Virus record (IMG/VR): IMGVR_UViG_3300046413_000413
Span: 1 to 41,196 of that record
Length of the DNA stretch: 41,196 nucleotides
Strand: one strand, 5' to 3'
Origin: a virus
Shown here: in pieces, positions 3,371-34,570 of the stretch
How the letters are laid out: every line of letters starts with the position of its first letter
Position numbering within the stretch: position 1 is the stretch's first letter
Translations under genes and position numbers: made by a program
Notes under the pieces: generated by a model
Told to the model about the DNA's origin: nothing
Database searches by the model: none
The model's input: the letters and a program-made list of their open reading frames with translations, nothing else

Positions 3371-4678
3371 TTAAGCAATCACCCAGTTAGAGCCAGAAGG
3401 AACGGTGACTGTGGCACCACTGTTGACCGTTAAAGGACCAGCAGAGATCACGTTCTTACCTGTGCCAATAGTGTAAGACGTAGTAATCGTGTTGTCGTGC
3501 TCGACAGCCCACGTATCACTACCGCCACCTGTCGCACCACCACCACTGCTGTCTTGCCATGATGGTGCGCTGCTTGTGCCGTTCGATGTAAATACCTGAC
3601 CGCTTGAACCGTAGTTAGTCCCGCCAATACCAATTTGACCTGCACTTGCAACCCTGAAACGCTCGACACCTTCTGTTGTGACCTTGAAGTGTCCGTCTGA
3701 TCCCGTATCAACAACCTCTGCTTCTGTATTGCCTTCAATGATTTTGTCTGTATCTGCAGCAGTCCCGCTTGATGCTGCAGTAACCCGACCCTGTGCATCA
3801 ATAGTGACGCTGCTCAACGTGTAACTGCCAGGAGTTACAGCAGTATTGGCAAGCTTTGCTGCAGTTACTGCATCGTCTGCAATCTTGGCAGTTGTAACTG
3901 CATCATCTGCAATCTCAGCCGTACCAACTGTCCCGCTTGCTGCCGCCGTAATTCGGCCTTGAGCATCAACAGTTATATCTGCGGCTGTGTAGCTTCCAGC
4001 AGAAACTGATGTGTTAGCAAGCTTTGCTGCTGTAACTGCATCATCTGCGATGTAAGCCGTTGCAATCGCAGTACCGTTCCAAACACCAGTCGCAATCGTT
4101 CCAACACTGGTAAGGCTAGAGCCAACAACAGCACTGCCTAAGCTTGTTGCGTCAAGGACTTTTGTCCCAGCAATACGAAATTCTTTTGCACTTGCAATAT
4201 TTACGTGCTCACTAAGTGTCCAAGCATCTGTGCTGTTAATCCAACTAATTGTCTTATCAGTTGCACCTTTTAGCGTAATTCCACCACCATCAGCCGTTGT
4301 GTCTGTAGGTGTAGCAACACTGCCAAGCTCAAGGTTTTTATCGTCGATCGTGACAGTCGTGCTTTCAACCGTTGTGGTTGCACCCTGAACCGTCAGATCA
4401 CCAGAAATTACGACGTTACCGCTGGCATCAACCGTGACACGTTGCGTTCCACCAGTCGTAATCCCGACGGTATCCGTACCAGCAAGGTAAATACCGTTTG
4501 CTTGGTCTGAGCTAAAAGCTAGTGCTGGTGCGGCTGCTGTTCCATCAGGCAGTGTACGAAACAGGTTGGTCGATGTAATCTTCTTCGTTTCATCCGTACT
4601 TATATCAACAACAGGCAGGACATCATCTGCAGCTAGCGAGCCCGCAGCATTGAGTTCCGTAATCTTGATATTGGCCAT
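3371..4678 (-). CDS. Tail fibre / baseplate-associated structural protein
   Basis: A 435-residue, Thr/Ser/Ala/Gly-rich protein with the look of a phage fibre. The N terminus contains a DVLPVVDISTDETKKIT segment and a block reading TGGTQRVTVDASGNV. The middle has two near-identical units, SYTAADITVDAQGRITAAASG and SYTLSSVTIDAQGRVTAASSG, each followed by repeats of IADDAVTTAKIADDAVTAAKL. The C terminus ends PSGSNWVIA, an ending I associate with marine phage fibres. No enzymatic motif is visible. It sits between the collar-domain fibre and the S74 fibres with gaps of 2-5 bases. The fibre assignment is by composition, repeats and context. Confidence 0.75.
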   Translation of the reverse strand: MANIKITELNAAGSLAADDVLPVVDISTDETKKITSTNLFRTLPDGTAAAPALAFSSDQANGIYLAGTDTVGITTGGTQRVTVDASGNVVISGDLTVQGATTTVESTTVTIDDKNLELGSVATPTDTTADGGGITLKGATDKTISWINSTDAWTLSEHVNIASAKEFRIAGTKVLDATSLGSAVVGSSLTSVGTIATGVWNGTAIATAYIADDAVTAAKLANTSVSAGSYTAADITVDAQGRITAAASGTVGTAEIADDAVTTAKIADDAVTAAKLANTAVTPGSYTLSSVTIDAQGRVTAASSGTAADTDKIIEGNTEAEVVDTGSDGHFKVTTEGVERFRVASAGQIGIGGTNYGSSGQVFTSNGTSSAPSWQDSSGGGATGGGSDTWAVEHDNTITTSYTIGTGKNVISAGPLTVNSGATVTVPSGSNWVIA

Positions 4679-22319: not shown

Positions 22320-23573
22320 TCAATACAACCGATAAGAAGTTGGCCCCATTGTTTCTGGTTTTGCCAAATTAAACTGTTGCAAAACTAAATAACCAAACGC
22401 ATCAAATGCGTGGTCAACTCCTAAATTCTTGTTTGGTAGCCCTGTTCCAGGTGCATACGTCAGTGTTCGCAGCGATTTAATTAGGTTTTTACACCTTGGA
22501 TGCACTACCGTCCTTCGCGTTCCAGATGCATCCATTAATGCAGTGTTCACTGCTGTGATCTTGTCGCGGATCTTCCATGGCGCTCTTGGTGTTTGGACCG
22601 TAAATCCACTGCGACGCAAAATTGCATGGTCCGTTACACCTACCCCACTTGTTTTTCGTGCGCCGCCTGTAGGGTCAGGACAAGCAATAATTCTTCGATC
22701 TACGCCATATCTACGTGTAACTTCTTCGGCAAAATCCCAGGTTGTTGCACCGCCCGTCAACATAATCTCGTCAAATACATATAACGTCTCGCCATCCTTG
22801 ACCGCACAAATACCACTCATGGGATCGACGTTAAAGTCAACTCCAAGTAGTAATGGCTGAATCTTGATGTCTTTGGCTTCTTGAGAGATGTTCTCATCAC
22901 CAAAGCTGATCGCAACAAGTCCCGTTAAATTCTCGAAGCTAGCCTCAAATTCTTGACGGAATGTTCTCGTGTCAAGCTGGGCGCGGGCAGCTTCCACTTC
23001 ATGCTTGCTGACATTACCCCCGTCAATCGTCGTATAACTCCATCGTTCCCACAACCCTGTCTCGTCCTCCGGTACATAACACCACAAGTCATAAAACCAA
23101 CTAGCTGTACCGTCCGGTGTTGAAATAAATAATGCCCAACCCTCCTTATCCGCTAACGCAGGTCGAATAACTTCAAACCATACGTCCGAACTCATAAAGG
23201 CAGCCTCGTCTAATACGACCCCGGACAAACTGCGGCCCCGCAAAGCCATTGCGTTCTCTGTTCCCTTCAACTCGATCGTTGATCCATTAATTAACTCAAG
23301 TCGTAGGTCGGTCTCGTTCTTACTCTTGATCCAAACTTGTGGCACAAGCTTCTTTAATGCTCGCCACGCAATGTCCTTTGCCATCCGATACGTCGGAGCA
23401 CAATAAAAAAATGTCTCCCCAGGGCGATTGATCGCTCCACGCACCAATTCAACACAAGACAAATACGATTTACCGAAGCGGCGTCCTGCTACTAGGACCC
23501 GAAAACGTTTTTCACAGGAAAATACTTGCCCTTGAGCCCATCGAAGCTCAATTGGTGCGGTTTTTTGGCTCAT
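22320..23573 (-). CDS. terL: Terminase large subunit
   Basis: A 417-residue DNA packaging motor. The ATPase half has Walker A GRRFGKS (residues 30-36), Walker B VVLDEAAF (Asp122, Glu123) and a coupling-like ISTPDG. The nuclease half has GVDFNVDP (Asp246), ACPDPTG (Asp300) and VDHAFDAFGY (Asp387, Asp391), the RNase H-like acidic set. All key residues appear present. It pumps DNA into the procapsid and cuts it. I prefer ATG 23573 (MSQKTAPIEL) to GTG 23582. It is transcribed toward, but not joined to, the virion operon, since a convergent plus-strand gene lies in between with only 5 bases between stops. Confidence 0.95.
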   Translation of the reverse strand: MSQKTAPIELRWAQGQVFSCEKRFRVLVAGRRFGKSYLSCVELVRGAINRPGETFFYCAPTYRMAKDIAWRALKKLVPQVWIKSKNETDLRLELINGSTIELKGTENAMALRGRSLSGVVLDEAAFMSSDVWFEVIRPALADKEGWALFISTPDGTASWFYDLWCYVPEDETGLWERWSYTTIDGGNVSKHEVEAARAQLDTRTFRQEFEASFENLTGLVAISFGDENISQEAKDIKIQPLLLGVDFNVDPMSGICAVKDGETLYVFDEIMLTGGATTWDFAEEVTRRYGVDRRIIACPDPTGGARKTSGVGVTDHAILRRSGFTVQTPRAPWKIRDKITAVNTALMDASGTRRTVVHPRCKNLIKSLRTLTYAPGTGLPNKNLGVDHAFDAFGYLVLQQFNLAKPETMGPTSYRLY

Positions 23574-23670
23574 AAATGCCACATTACACAGATTCTTGAC
23601 CCCTGCCCCCCTTAATCAGAGGCTAGAAGCCTTTCTACCAGTTAAGATCTTGGAAAAGGTCGTATCAAGC

Positions 23671-30965: not shown

Positions 30966-33215
30966 ATGAACCTTCAGGAATTTGTTGCCCAGCTGCCTTC
31001 TGGCTTGGTCTACGCACCGATATATGCCAAAGATGCCCCAATGGTCTCTGGCAAACCAGCGACTGGTAAGAACCCTCTAGAGGCCAGCTACGACTCGAAG
31101 TTTGATCCTGCTGATGTAGCCCTCGCAATCAAACGCAACCCTGACCTCAAGGCTGTTGGCGTCTTTACCGGTATCCGTGGCAATGGCATCGTCATCCTTG
31201 ACGTTGATCGTCACCTCAACAAGCACTTAAAAGTCTGGGGCTCGTCCATCGATGACGCTCCAATCATCACTTCAACCAAGGACGATGCAGCTAAGTACCT
31301 GTTTCGCGTCCCTGAAGACCTCTGGAGCCAGGTAGAAGGCCATGGACTTACCGATGACTGCCCTGATTACGAGATCCTCTGGAACTCAAAGCGTCAAGGC
31401 GTCATCTTTGGTGCCTACCCAGGTGGCAAGAACTCAACTGCTGGTCACTACAGCTTTGACGGTGATCTGAATACCATTCCTGTTGCTCCAGATTGGTTGC
31501 TTGCAGAAATGAAGCAGCCTCCAAAAACAATCAACAAACGCGATCTTGATTTCACTGATCGCACCCAAGACGAAATCTTTGAGATCGTCCGTGATTGCCT
31601 AAACGTCATCCCATGTAAAGGCGCTGGCTCCAGGGATCACTGGGTCAGGATTGGTATGGCAATCAATTCTGCTTTGCCCAATGAAATGGGCTTCATGCTT
31701 TGGTCAGCATGGTCAGCAGAAGATCCTGATTACGCCTCTGAATGGGAAGACTCCAACCCCTGTGCTGATGCCTGGAACACCTTCAAAGGCAATGGCATTG
31801 GCATCGGTACCTTAATTTTCTTGGCTGACAGGGAGGATCCAGAACGCCGTAGGTTTTCAGACGATCTGGCCAAAGTCGTCAAATCAGCAGAGGAAAAAGT
31901 AGTTCAAGAAACGCGCCAAGCAACTCTCGACTTCGATGAAGTCATCCGCCGCGCCAAACACATCCTTGATCTAGACAACCCGGCTGAAGTTAATTACAAG
32001 CTCAACACCCTTGCCCTGCAAGCTGGTTACAGAGATCAATCAGCCCTTGAGAAATTAATCGTCGATCAACTGTCGTACGAAAAAGCTCAAGACCTGATGA
32101 CCGTTAAAGAGCTGATGAAGCTGGACGCCAAACGTGATTACTTGATCCCTGATGTCCTTCCTCATCCTTCTGTCGTCTTGATATATGGCGCTGGTGGTGA
32201 CGGTAAATCCATGTCCGCTTGGGCTCTTGCAAAACACATTGCAACTGGCCAACCATTCCTCGTTCGTGGCAATCACGTTCCAGTCGAACAAGGCCCTGTC
32301 CTTCTGCTGAACGGTGACCAGCCTTTGGTCCAGCTCAAGGAGCAACTGGAAGAGATGGACTTCCCCATCACTGATCAGACCTTGATCCAGACCGATTGGC
32401 AGCTTCAACGCTATGCACAATTCATCAAGCTCATGGAGAAGCACCGCCCCAAACTCGTTGTCATTGACTCGCTTATTGGTTGCTCTGGTGGTCGAGCCTT
32501 TGATGAGAACAAGTCTGAATTTGCTCAGCCCTTGTATTGGCTCACTAAAAACAATGGTGATCTGTTCCCCGCCACCACAATTCTCATCGTTCATCACGCC
32601 AACAAGAATGGTGGCTTTAGGGGAACCTCAGCCATCCGTGATGCAGTTGACGAGACCTGGGCCTTACGCAAGCCCAATGATGAAGAAAGAGGCCGTGTAG
32701 GCGGTCATAGCCGTCTAATCACAATTGAAAAGTCACGCTCAGGTCGTATGGACACACAGCTCGTCATGCAAATGCAAGATGACCTGTCCTTCACCATCAG
32801 TGACTTCACGCCCGAAGTCGATGAAAACAACACCTCACCAGCCTCCGTTGCTGATCGTGTCCTTCAAAAACTCAGAGTCGTTCACCCTGAATCACGCACT
32901 ATCGAAGATCTGTTTTACGACCCACTCATCAATGGCAAAACAGCCGCTATTCGCAAATCGCTCCAACGATTAGAAAAACGAGGCTTAGTCGTCTCAAACG
33001 CCTCAGATAAGTCCCGTTCCAAACAACAAGTCAACTCCTACAAAGCAATACTCGCGCGTGGAGAGGGTAAGAAAGTGTCCCAACCAGGGGTAGATGCTAG
33101 TGCTGGAGCGGTATCTGAGGTGGGACACAAGGCTGGGACACCCCTATCCTGTCCCAACCTTTCTGAGGGTTCTGTTGTAGTTGATATTGGTGCGGAAGAG
33201 CTGGGACACATCTAA
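30966..33215 (+). CDS. Primase-polymerase / RecA-fold helicase fusion
   Basis: A 749-residue replication protein. Residues 1-180 look like a bifunctional primase-polymerase domain, with catalytic LDVDRH (79-84) and RQGVIFGAYPGG (143-154). Residues 205-290 match a PriCT domain (IVRDCLNVIPCKGAGSRDHW, EWEDSNPCADAWNTFKGNG in the same region). Residues 395-620 are a RepA/RecA-type ATPase: Walker A GAGGDGKS (408-415), Walker B LVVIDS (Asp501) and LIVHHANKNGGFRGTSAIRD. A short winged-helix-like end follows. It would prime and unwind phage DNA. No separate DNA polymerase is seen, so host polymerase or this protein's own must do the rest. The last 50 residues are encoded by repeat-rich DNA. Confidence 0.92.
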   Translation: MNLQEFVAQLPSGLVYAPIYAKDAPMVSGKPATGKNPLEASYDSKFDPADVALAIKRNPDLKAVGVFTGIRGNGIVILDVDRHLNKHLKVWGSSIDDAPIITSTKDDAAKYLFRVPEDLWSQVEGHGLTDDCPDYEILWNSKRQGVIFGAYPGGKNSTAGHYSFDGDLNTIPVAPDWLLAEMKQPPKTINKRDLDFTDRTQDEIFEIVRDCLNVIPCKGAGSRDHWVRIGMAINSALPNEMGFMLWSAWSAEDPDYASEWEDSNPCADAWNTFKGNGIGIGTLIFLADREDPERRRFSDDLAKVVKSAEEKVVQETRQATLDFDEVIRRAKHILDLDNPAEVNYKLNTLALQAGYRDQSALEKLIVDQLSYEKAQDLMTVKELMKLDAKRDYLIPDVLPHPSVVLIYGAGGDGKSMSAWALAKHIATGQPFLVRGNHVPVEQGPVLLLNGDQPLVQLKEQLEEMDFPITDQTLIQTDWQLQRYAQFIKLMEKHRPKLVVIDSLIGCSGGRAFDENKSEFAQPLYWLTKNNGDLFPATTILIVHHANKNGGFRGTSAIRDAVDETWALRKPNDEERGRVGGHSRLITIEKSRSGRMDTQLVMQMQDDLSFTISDFTPEVDENNTSPASVADRVLQKLRVVHPESRTIEDLFYDPLINGKTAAIRKSLQRLEKRGLVVSNASDKSRSKQQVNSYKAILARGEGKKVSQPGVDASAGAVSEVGHKAGTPLSCPNLSEGSVVVDIGAEELGHI

Positions 33216-33280
33216 CTGTCCCAACCCCCTGTCCCAACCTTCTTCCATTGCTATCACTAGCATTTGGCACGGTTGGGACA
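33076..33280. repeat. Cluster of eight TGTCCCA repeats, candidate origin or operator
   Basis: The heptamer TGTCCCA occurs eight times in 205 bases. Four copies are on the plus strand, all extended to TGTCCCAACC (33076, 33150, 33217, 33230). Four are on the minus strand, as TGGGACA at 33121, 33134, 33202 and 33274 (the last extended to GGTTGGGACA). The cluster covers the 3' end of the primase gene and the short gap after it. Iteron-like sites beside a primase gene suggest a replication origin or autoregulatory site, but transcript hairpins are also possible. Confidence 0.75.
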
Positions 33281-33313
33281 CCTACGGCATCTATACGCGC
33301 GAGAAGCCTTTCG

Positions 33314-33511
33314 ATGAATTGGAGCGAAATCCTTAGCAAGGCTGGTGTTCCCGAACCTCCGGGCTACCTTGAAACCGTTGCTTCGGTACGCTCCAAACCT
33401 AGAGTTAAATCGTCCAACAAATCCAAAAAACCCAAAAGGAAACCCGTAAAATTACGGAATGAAAAGAATCGAAACCTACCTCCCAGAAGACATCGCCAAA
33501 CGTCTTTCTGA
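33314..33511 (+). CDS. Small basic protein after the repeat cluster
   Basis: A 65-residue protein: MNWSEILSKAGVPEPPGYLE then a Lys/Arg/Ser-rich tail (KSSNKSKKPKRKPVKLRNEK). The opening (NWxEILxKAGxPEPPG) seems conserved in phage proteins I have seen, and the tail suggests nucleic acid contact. It overlaps the next gene by 53 bases. GAGAAG upstream may serve as ribosome site. Confidence 0.6.
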   Translation: MNWSEILSKAGVPEPPGYLETVASVRSKPRVKSSNKSKKPKRKPVKLRNEKNRNLPPRRHRQTSF

Positions 33512-33731
33512 TCAAGCAGAAAGTGCTGGCATCAAGCGATCAGAATTAATCCGTGACCTGATCCTTAACTCTCAAACAAGCTTCGACATCACCCCAGATG
33601 ACTACAACAGAGCTGTCATTAGGATTCGCAAGCGTTGCGGTAATTTGTTGGGGCGTCATCAAGCTGAAAGCCTTGTGGCATCAGTTTTTACAGAGTTCTC
33701 AGGAGCTAGCCTTCGTGCCGCAAAAAATTAA
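33459..33731 (+). CDS. Ribbon-helix-helix (CopG-type) DNA-binding protein
   Basis: A 90-residue protein. Residues 1-32 are a classical RHH domain: RIETYLPEDIAKRLSDQAES then GIKRSELIRDLI, with the N-terminal strand that binds DNA. The remainder is helical and basic. Such proteins are dimeric repressors, often of their own operon. It overlaps the gene before it by 53 bases and the next start by 17. Confidence 0.82.
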   Translation: MKRIETYLPEDIAKRLSDQAESAGIKRSELIRDLILNSQTSFDITPDDYNRAVIRIRKRCGNLLGRHQAESLVASVFTEFSGASLRAAKN

Positions 33732-34282: not shown

Positions 34283-34300
34283 GTACTATTGTGCCGATTG

Positions 34301-34570
34301 ATGGCAAGTAATCACGGCAAGCGTATTTACGTTCAAGTTCTTTTAGAACCAAGTCGTGGAAAGCTATTTTTAAAAGAAGCAGAATCTAAAAATCTCAAGC
34401 CTTCAGTGTTGATGCGTGAGATTGTCTATAACTATCTTGCAGAAGAATGCGACCAAGATACTTACGTTAATGCTCTTACACAAGACAAGGAAGAGTGGGA
34501 AGCATCTGTTATCGCTAGGTTGAATGGTCGAGCGGCAAAACGTCGTGAGCGTGCTGACCTAGATCCTTAA
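34301..34570 (+). CDS. Probable ribbon-helix-helix regulator
   Basis: An 89-residue protein: RIYVQVLLEPSRGKLFLKEA then NLKPSVLMREIVYNYLAEEC, which fits an RHH fold (strand, helix, turn, helix). The C-terminal half is a charged helix (EWEASVIARLNGRAAKRRER). A promoter with palindromic repeats lies just upstream, so autoregulation is likely. Its stop overlaps that of the convergent gene in TTAA (34567-34570). Confidence 0.65.
   Translation: MASNHGKRIYVQVLLEPSRGKLFLKEAESKNLKPSVLMREIVYNYLAEECDQDTYVNALTQDKEEWEASVIARLNGRAAKRRERADLDP

Follow-up and report, generated by a model that had tools for sequence, protein, structure and literature searches.

The helicase of the phage P4 alpha protein belongs to SF3, and the lambdoid O protein is a separate initiator that has neither primase nor helicase domains. 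In P4 alpha, a Toprim-type primase, a helicase and a winged helix for origin binding are combined in one polypeptide, which is accompanied by repeated sites at ori and crr (PMC4234260). The same source describes for the pRN1 replicon a single protein with a primase-polymerase, a helicase and a C-terminal winged helix, an origin located 3' of its own gene, and a 100-nt stem-loop that is stated to be without iteron structure (PMC4234260). The initiator of lambdoid phages binds to iterons that are contained in its own gene and have an AT-rich region beside them (PMC7466680). Mobile-element proteins with the domain order Primase, PriCT, RepA-type helicase and winged helix (WH) have a RecA-type RepA helicase and a C-terminal WH (PMC5862659); the term 'iteron' is absent from the main text of that paper, and the passages considered here mention no origin array or helix-word code. 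A Prim-Pol/AAA_25 protein is also encoded by the roseophage CRP-810 (PMC11288001), in a report whose main text does not contain the word 'repeat'.

Here we analyze a window of 41,196 bases (the whole stretch of DNA under study), an IMG/VR virus record of a marine phage. Its layout is that of a long-tailed phage, with the terminase, portal, capsid and tail genes on the - strand and the early genes on the + strand. A match to Phage_OMP (cyanophage outer-membrane-protein-like) and a weak match to the ATPase of Synechococcus phage S-CBS4 suggest a cyanobacterial host. A tandem 30-bp repeat of 2.1 copies was observed inside a tail-region gene (3867-3930). One + strand gene (30966-33215) encodes a primase-helicase of 749 aa, in which Prim-Pol, PriCT-2 and AAA_25 (RecA-type) domains were detected by Pfam and a C-terminal winged helix was predicted by structural models; a sequence search for relatives with solved structures returned none at E 0.01. 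Prim-Pol, PriCT, a RecA-type ATPase and WH are thus all present in one polypeptide, in the same order as in the mobile-element proteins. The C-terminal winged helix, a predicted fold, is shared with the P4 alpha family and with pRN1. In contrast, the Prim-Pol, PriCT_2 and AAA_25 domains found by Pfam differ from the Toprim and SF3 domains of the former, and AAA_25 differs from the SF3 helicase of the latter.

Eight exact copies of TGTCCCA, four per strand, are clustered at 33076-33280. The + strand sites are located at 33076-33082, 33150-33156, 33217-33223 and 33230-33236, and all four read TGTCCCAACC; the - strand sites are located at 33121-33127, 33134-33140, 33202-33208 and 33274-33280. The sequence-only reading had described four direct and four inverted heptamers in 205 bases, extending from the C-terminal codons of the primase to a point before the next gene. 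Both statements were borne out. The primase-helicase ORF ends at 33215 and the next possible ORF, a small one, starts at 33314, followed by a gene for an RHH protein (33459-33731, by Pfam). Within 33001-33480, where there are eight copies, 2,000 shuffles gave 0.097 on average and at most 2, and no heptamer of any kind exceeded four copies in 1,000 shuffles. The whole window contains 13 copies (shuffle mean 4.87), and the five that lie outside the array are isolated (at 176, 4163, 18279, 25741 and 30477). What was found is a cluster of multiple short, specific sites beside a putative initiator gene. Its mirror-symmetric layout and its position inside and just behind the gene are unlike P4. Its place fits that of the pRN1 origin, with a putative origin function here, and recalls the lambdoid ori in the O gene, with binding by the encoded protein being likewise presumptive.

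Since five of the eight sites are coding, the repeats could be a by-product of a repetitive protein tail. However, the sites in the primase-helicase ORF use all three frame offsets (encoding VSQ, VGH, AGT, CPN and LGH) and the other three sites lie past the stop, so that it is the DNA, and not the peptide, that is repetitive. Moreover, in two relatives (L063 and L041) the reading frame ends earlier and the later sites are still kept, which already contradicts the protein-tail explanation and makes it almost certainly wrong. A second word, TGGAGCG, is present at 33104-33110 and recurs both in and after the arrays of several relatives (L009, L289 and others), with TGGAACG, TGGCACG and TGGTACG recognized by eye as its variants.

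Relatives were collected by a protein search of viral contigs, which yielded 76 loci, and by two further searches, which added 80 and 7. The first set comprised 156 loci (76 + 80), of which 127 were usable and 48 were left after dereplication at 96%. The seven loci of the third search and the weak genome relatives L294-L296 were judged apart, L289-L293 were assessed by inspection only, and L297 was left out. We excluded 120 pattern-selected loci from both the 48-locus and the held-out tests; some of them contribute to site logos, which do not serve as evidence.

Looking for the cluster at the same place in relatives, as had been proposed from the sequence alone, revealed that the repeats are conserved in position. 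In near relatives, all eight TGTCCCA sites occur at identical offsets, while more distant relatives have another word (TGTCCA or TGTCCCC) in the same places. The array word switches as a whole between lineages, the observed words being TGTCCCA, TGTCCA, TGTCCCC/G, TTTCCCA and TTTCCG. In a de novo word search, 40 of the 48 loci beat all 200 shuffles, and in 43 loci no more than two of the 200 reached the observed count; the five weaker arrays are those of L277, L206, L210, L245 and L249. Eroded arrays were seen in L210, L220 and L278. A conserved protein C terminus without conserved repeats had been named as an observation that would speak against a functional cluster. We found the opposite, namely repeats that are conserved in position and covary with the presumed DNA-reading helix of the neighbouring protein.

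No such array was found near the genes of the distant AAA_25 relatives in S-CBS4, BcepGomr, Tlacuache and CAM-P21, or near those of L286, L294 and L295. Four more distant relatives of the L156 type (L283, L285, L287 and L288) have other words repeated directly past the stop, and L284 is doubtful. TGTCCCA is the word in L282, the contig of L156 itself; a search for plasmid relatives of the L282 protein gave one weak record. Nine TGACGCA repeats follow a Desulfovibrio AAA_25-type gene (L296, 1447-1700), the product of which has a C terminus that appears HTH-like by eye. These observations suggest that repeats after such genes are a general habit and not a rule.

The sites of the window are ordered + - - + - + + - with spacings of 45, 13, 16, 52, 15, 13 and 44, forming a mirror image about position 33178. 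Among the 44 testable arrays (four of the 48 had under five sites and were left out), a mirror partner exists for a mean of 84% of sites versus 40% in random placement. The symmetry is significant at p<0.01 in 29 of these arrays and complete in 15; no mirror layout was found for L226, L243 and L249 within the tolerance applied. The outer spacing is about 45 bp in most arrays of the relatives, and the centre ranges from about 22 to 100 bp. Because adjacent opposite sites are able to pair (for example 33134-33156 and 33202-33223), they could work in RNA as hairpins, forming a terminator or a regulatory RNA. This is highly improbable given that all sites change word together, where pairwise compensation would suffice for a hairpin, and that the distances between opposite sites differ among relatives. 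In addition, the single Rfam match is at chance level and below its cut-off, and no terminator-like site was found within the array.

An imperfect inverted repeat with modest support brackets the array, with a left arm at 33051-33064 and a right arm at 33290-33303, which reads TATACGCGCGAG in the window's clade. It was rejected as a covarying stem: the complementarity was 7.07 within the own locus, 6.16 across other loci and 4.95 after shuffling, and the own value exceeded the cross-locus value in 27 of 44 loci, so that support for such a stem is only modest.

The C-terminal domain of the primase-helicase (residues 628-694, codons 32847-33047) was modelled by AlphaFold2 on 42 relatives as three helices followed by a beta hairpin, with a mean pLDDT of 77. 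Its best PDB match is 7ne9 (Z 9.8, 3.4 A over 77 residues), and the matches are winged-helix regulators; as winged helices are common, such a match shows the fold only. The segment AIRKSLQRL, encoded just before the array, forms helix 3 of the winged helix in two AlphaFold2 runs and includes residue 663 (R663 in the window, codon 32952-32954), the best single indicator of the array word. Across the 48 loci, with word labels taken from six words that had emerged de novo, none of the other columns among 720 is as strongly associated with the word as residue 663 (AMI 0.794; the next column has 0.502). Arginine at this position occurs with TGTCCCA in 28 loci and with TTTCCCA in one that also has K668. 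Lysine occurs with TGTCCCC in five loci and TGTCCCG in two (7/7), and histidine, glutamine or glycine with TGTCCA (10/10). Single rows have S663 with TGTCCCA and E663 with TTTCCG (K668).

On a tree built from residues 1-600, which leaves out the winged-helix domain, the array word has to change 12 times. In leave-one-out prediction, residue 663 gave the right word in 45 of 48 loci, compared with 40 of 48 for the nearest neighbour by residues 1-600. Judged by residues 1-600 as well as by its RHH gene, one locus (L033) groups with the TGTCCA loci, yet it has K663 and a TGTCCCC array. In comparison with the TGTCCA locus L054, its helix seems to have changed along with its array, and recombination may be the cause.

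The residue-663 rule was fixed in writing before new loci were fetched. The held-out set included 157 new loci, of which 127 were fresh, 121 usable and 43 left after dereplication. All 43 have an array of at least five sites, built on the core TGTCC or TTTCC. Of the 27 held-out loci with a predicted residue, 15 have the first six bases that the single-residue rule expects, indicating that residue 663 alone is not the code and that several helix residues matter. The misses comprise five loci with R663 and D or E667 (TGTCCG in four, mixed in one), six with G663 (TGTCCT in five, mixed in one), and L393 with R663 and TGTCCA. In the 43 new loci alone, residue 663 ranks fourth, after 653, 681 and 667.

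In all 91 loci, residue 663 is again the top column (0.425; next 0.368), with a clear lead for base 7 when the TGTCCC loci are taken (0.637; next 0.372). K663 is found with TGTCCC[CGT] in 12 of 12 rows, corresponding to seven of seven independent pairs (p 0.016). For R versus TGTCCCA, a mean of 8.6 pairs go the same way, 1.5 the opposite way and 1.9 show no difference (median p 0.065). The fraction of same-way pairs is 0.71 for residue 663, compared with a mean of 0.27 and a maximum of 0.60 for 40 control columns (from 153). Two further residues of the helix, Q667 and R668 in the window (codons 32964-32969), were associated with the word in rules judged after the fact: D/E667 with TGTCCG, and K668 with TTTCC in all four rows that have K668, representing two lineages (L228; L274, L301 and L302).

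The view that the sites are iterons bound by an initiator encoded beside them is supported by the positional conservation and by the covariation with the helix. Two binders had been proposed, the primase-helicase and the nearby RHH protein, and the relatives favour the former. The RHH protein was detected in 17 of the 48 loci, and its N termini are near identical despite a difference of word, both between L054 (TGTCCA) and L033 (TGTCCCC) and between L007 (TGTCCCA) and L029 (TGTCCCC). Often absent, and with an N-terminal strand that is unchanged when the word differs, it is disfavoured as the array binder, and the helix of the primase-helicase is the better candidate. We infer that the array sites are bound by the primase-helicase. 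Another small RHH-like protein was noticed by eye at 34289-34570, with relatives in 30 of the 48 primase loci.

The array could also be a transcriptional operator and not an origin, with either an autoregulating primase-helicase or the RHH protein encoded downstream as its binder. RHH proteins often bind repeats, autoregulation of initiators at their iterons is frequent, and an RHH gene is indeed located downstream. We nevertheless consider an operator unlikely, in view of the distribution and constancy of the RHH protein, the position of the array at the 3' end of the primase-helicase gene and not upstream of it, and the lack of any sigma-70-like promoter found in 32900-33700.

In enterobacterial prophages (a subset of L078-L197, e.g. 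L078:3643-3790, and L455, an E. coli HS prophage), TGTCCCA was likewise found in arrays, spaced at 13 and 16 bp much as in the window; no DNA matches of two such arrays were found in the phage collection. They are possibly packaging or operator sites that converged independently on the same word. These arrays are followed closely by a small gene and a gene for a gpA-type large terminase, which might suggest a packaging (pac/cos) or partition site for the window as well. There, however, the large terminase gene (22320-23582) is about 9.5 kb from the array and it is with the helix of the primase that the word covaries, which renders this function very unlikely.

The array is conserved in place, mirrored, and changes its word in concert with helix 3. 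Its sites are probably iterons, clustered in a self-encoded origin of replication, which the primase-helicase would bind via helix 3 of its C-terminal winged helix; the half-arrays would place two opposed assemblies for a bidirectional start. In the simplest reading, the protein would be an initiator-primase-helicase like P4 alpha and that of pRN1, reading iterons in its own gene as lambdoid O does. The primase-helicase would grip the sites through helix 3, the winged-helix codons ending about 30 bases before the first site. The two mirror-image half-arrays, each with an outer site, about 45 bp and an inner cluster, would when bound orient two helicase-primase assemblies outward, facing opposite ways, and these would separate the strands and provide primers for bidirectional replication. 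Binding has more support than helicase loading, bidirectional start and origin activity, and an origin rather than only a regulatory site is our interpretation. The GC skew, suggested earlier as a check, is monotone without a turn at the array and is uninformative as origin evidence. An AT-rich melting element beside iterons is usual, not universal; by AT content alone, none was found at the array (0.41-0.50 across it, at most 0.61 nearby).

Self-encoded iteron origins are a known kind, and the positional conservation, the mirror layout and the concerted change of specificity go beyond the initial observation; no description of the array or the helix-word code was found in the searched open-access literature. 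With somewhat more confidence than doubt, we propose a widespread type of phage origin in which the initiator recognizes the tail of the gene that encodes it: a primase-helicase would use its fused winged helix to bind two arrays that mirror each other. Residue 663 would pair with bases 6-7, residue 667 with base 6 and residue 668 with base 2, and this short helix-to-word code would switch repeatedly. Phages would then sort into origin specificities that exclude one another, with helix and array changing or moving as one cassette. Few uncultured phages have a mapped origin. If the proposal is true, the origin of a widespread phage group and the protein part that recognizes it would be readable from sequence. 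The natural specificity switches would provide ready variant pairs (R/K/H/Q/G at one position) for the study of initiator-origin coevolution, which also bear on the ability of phages with different words to replicate alongside one another.
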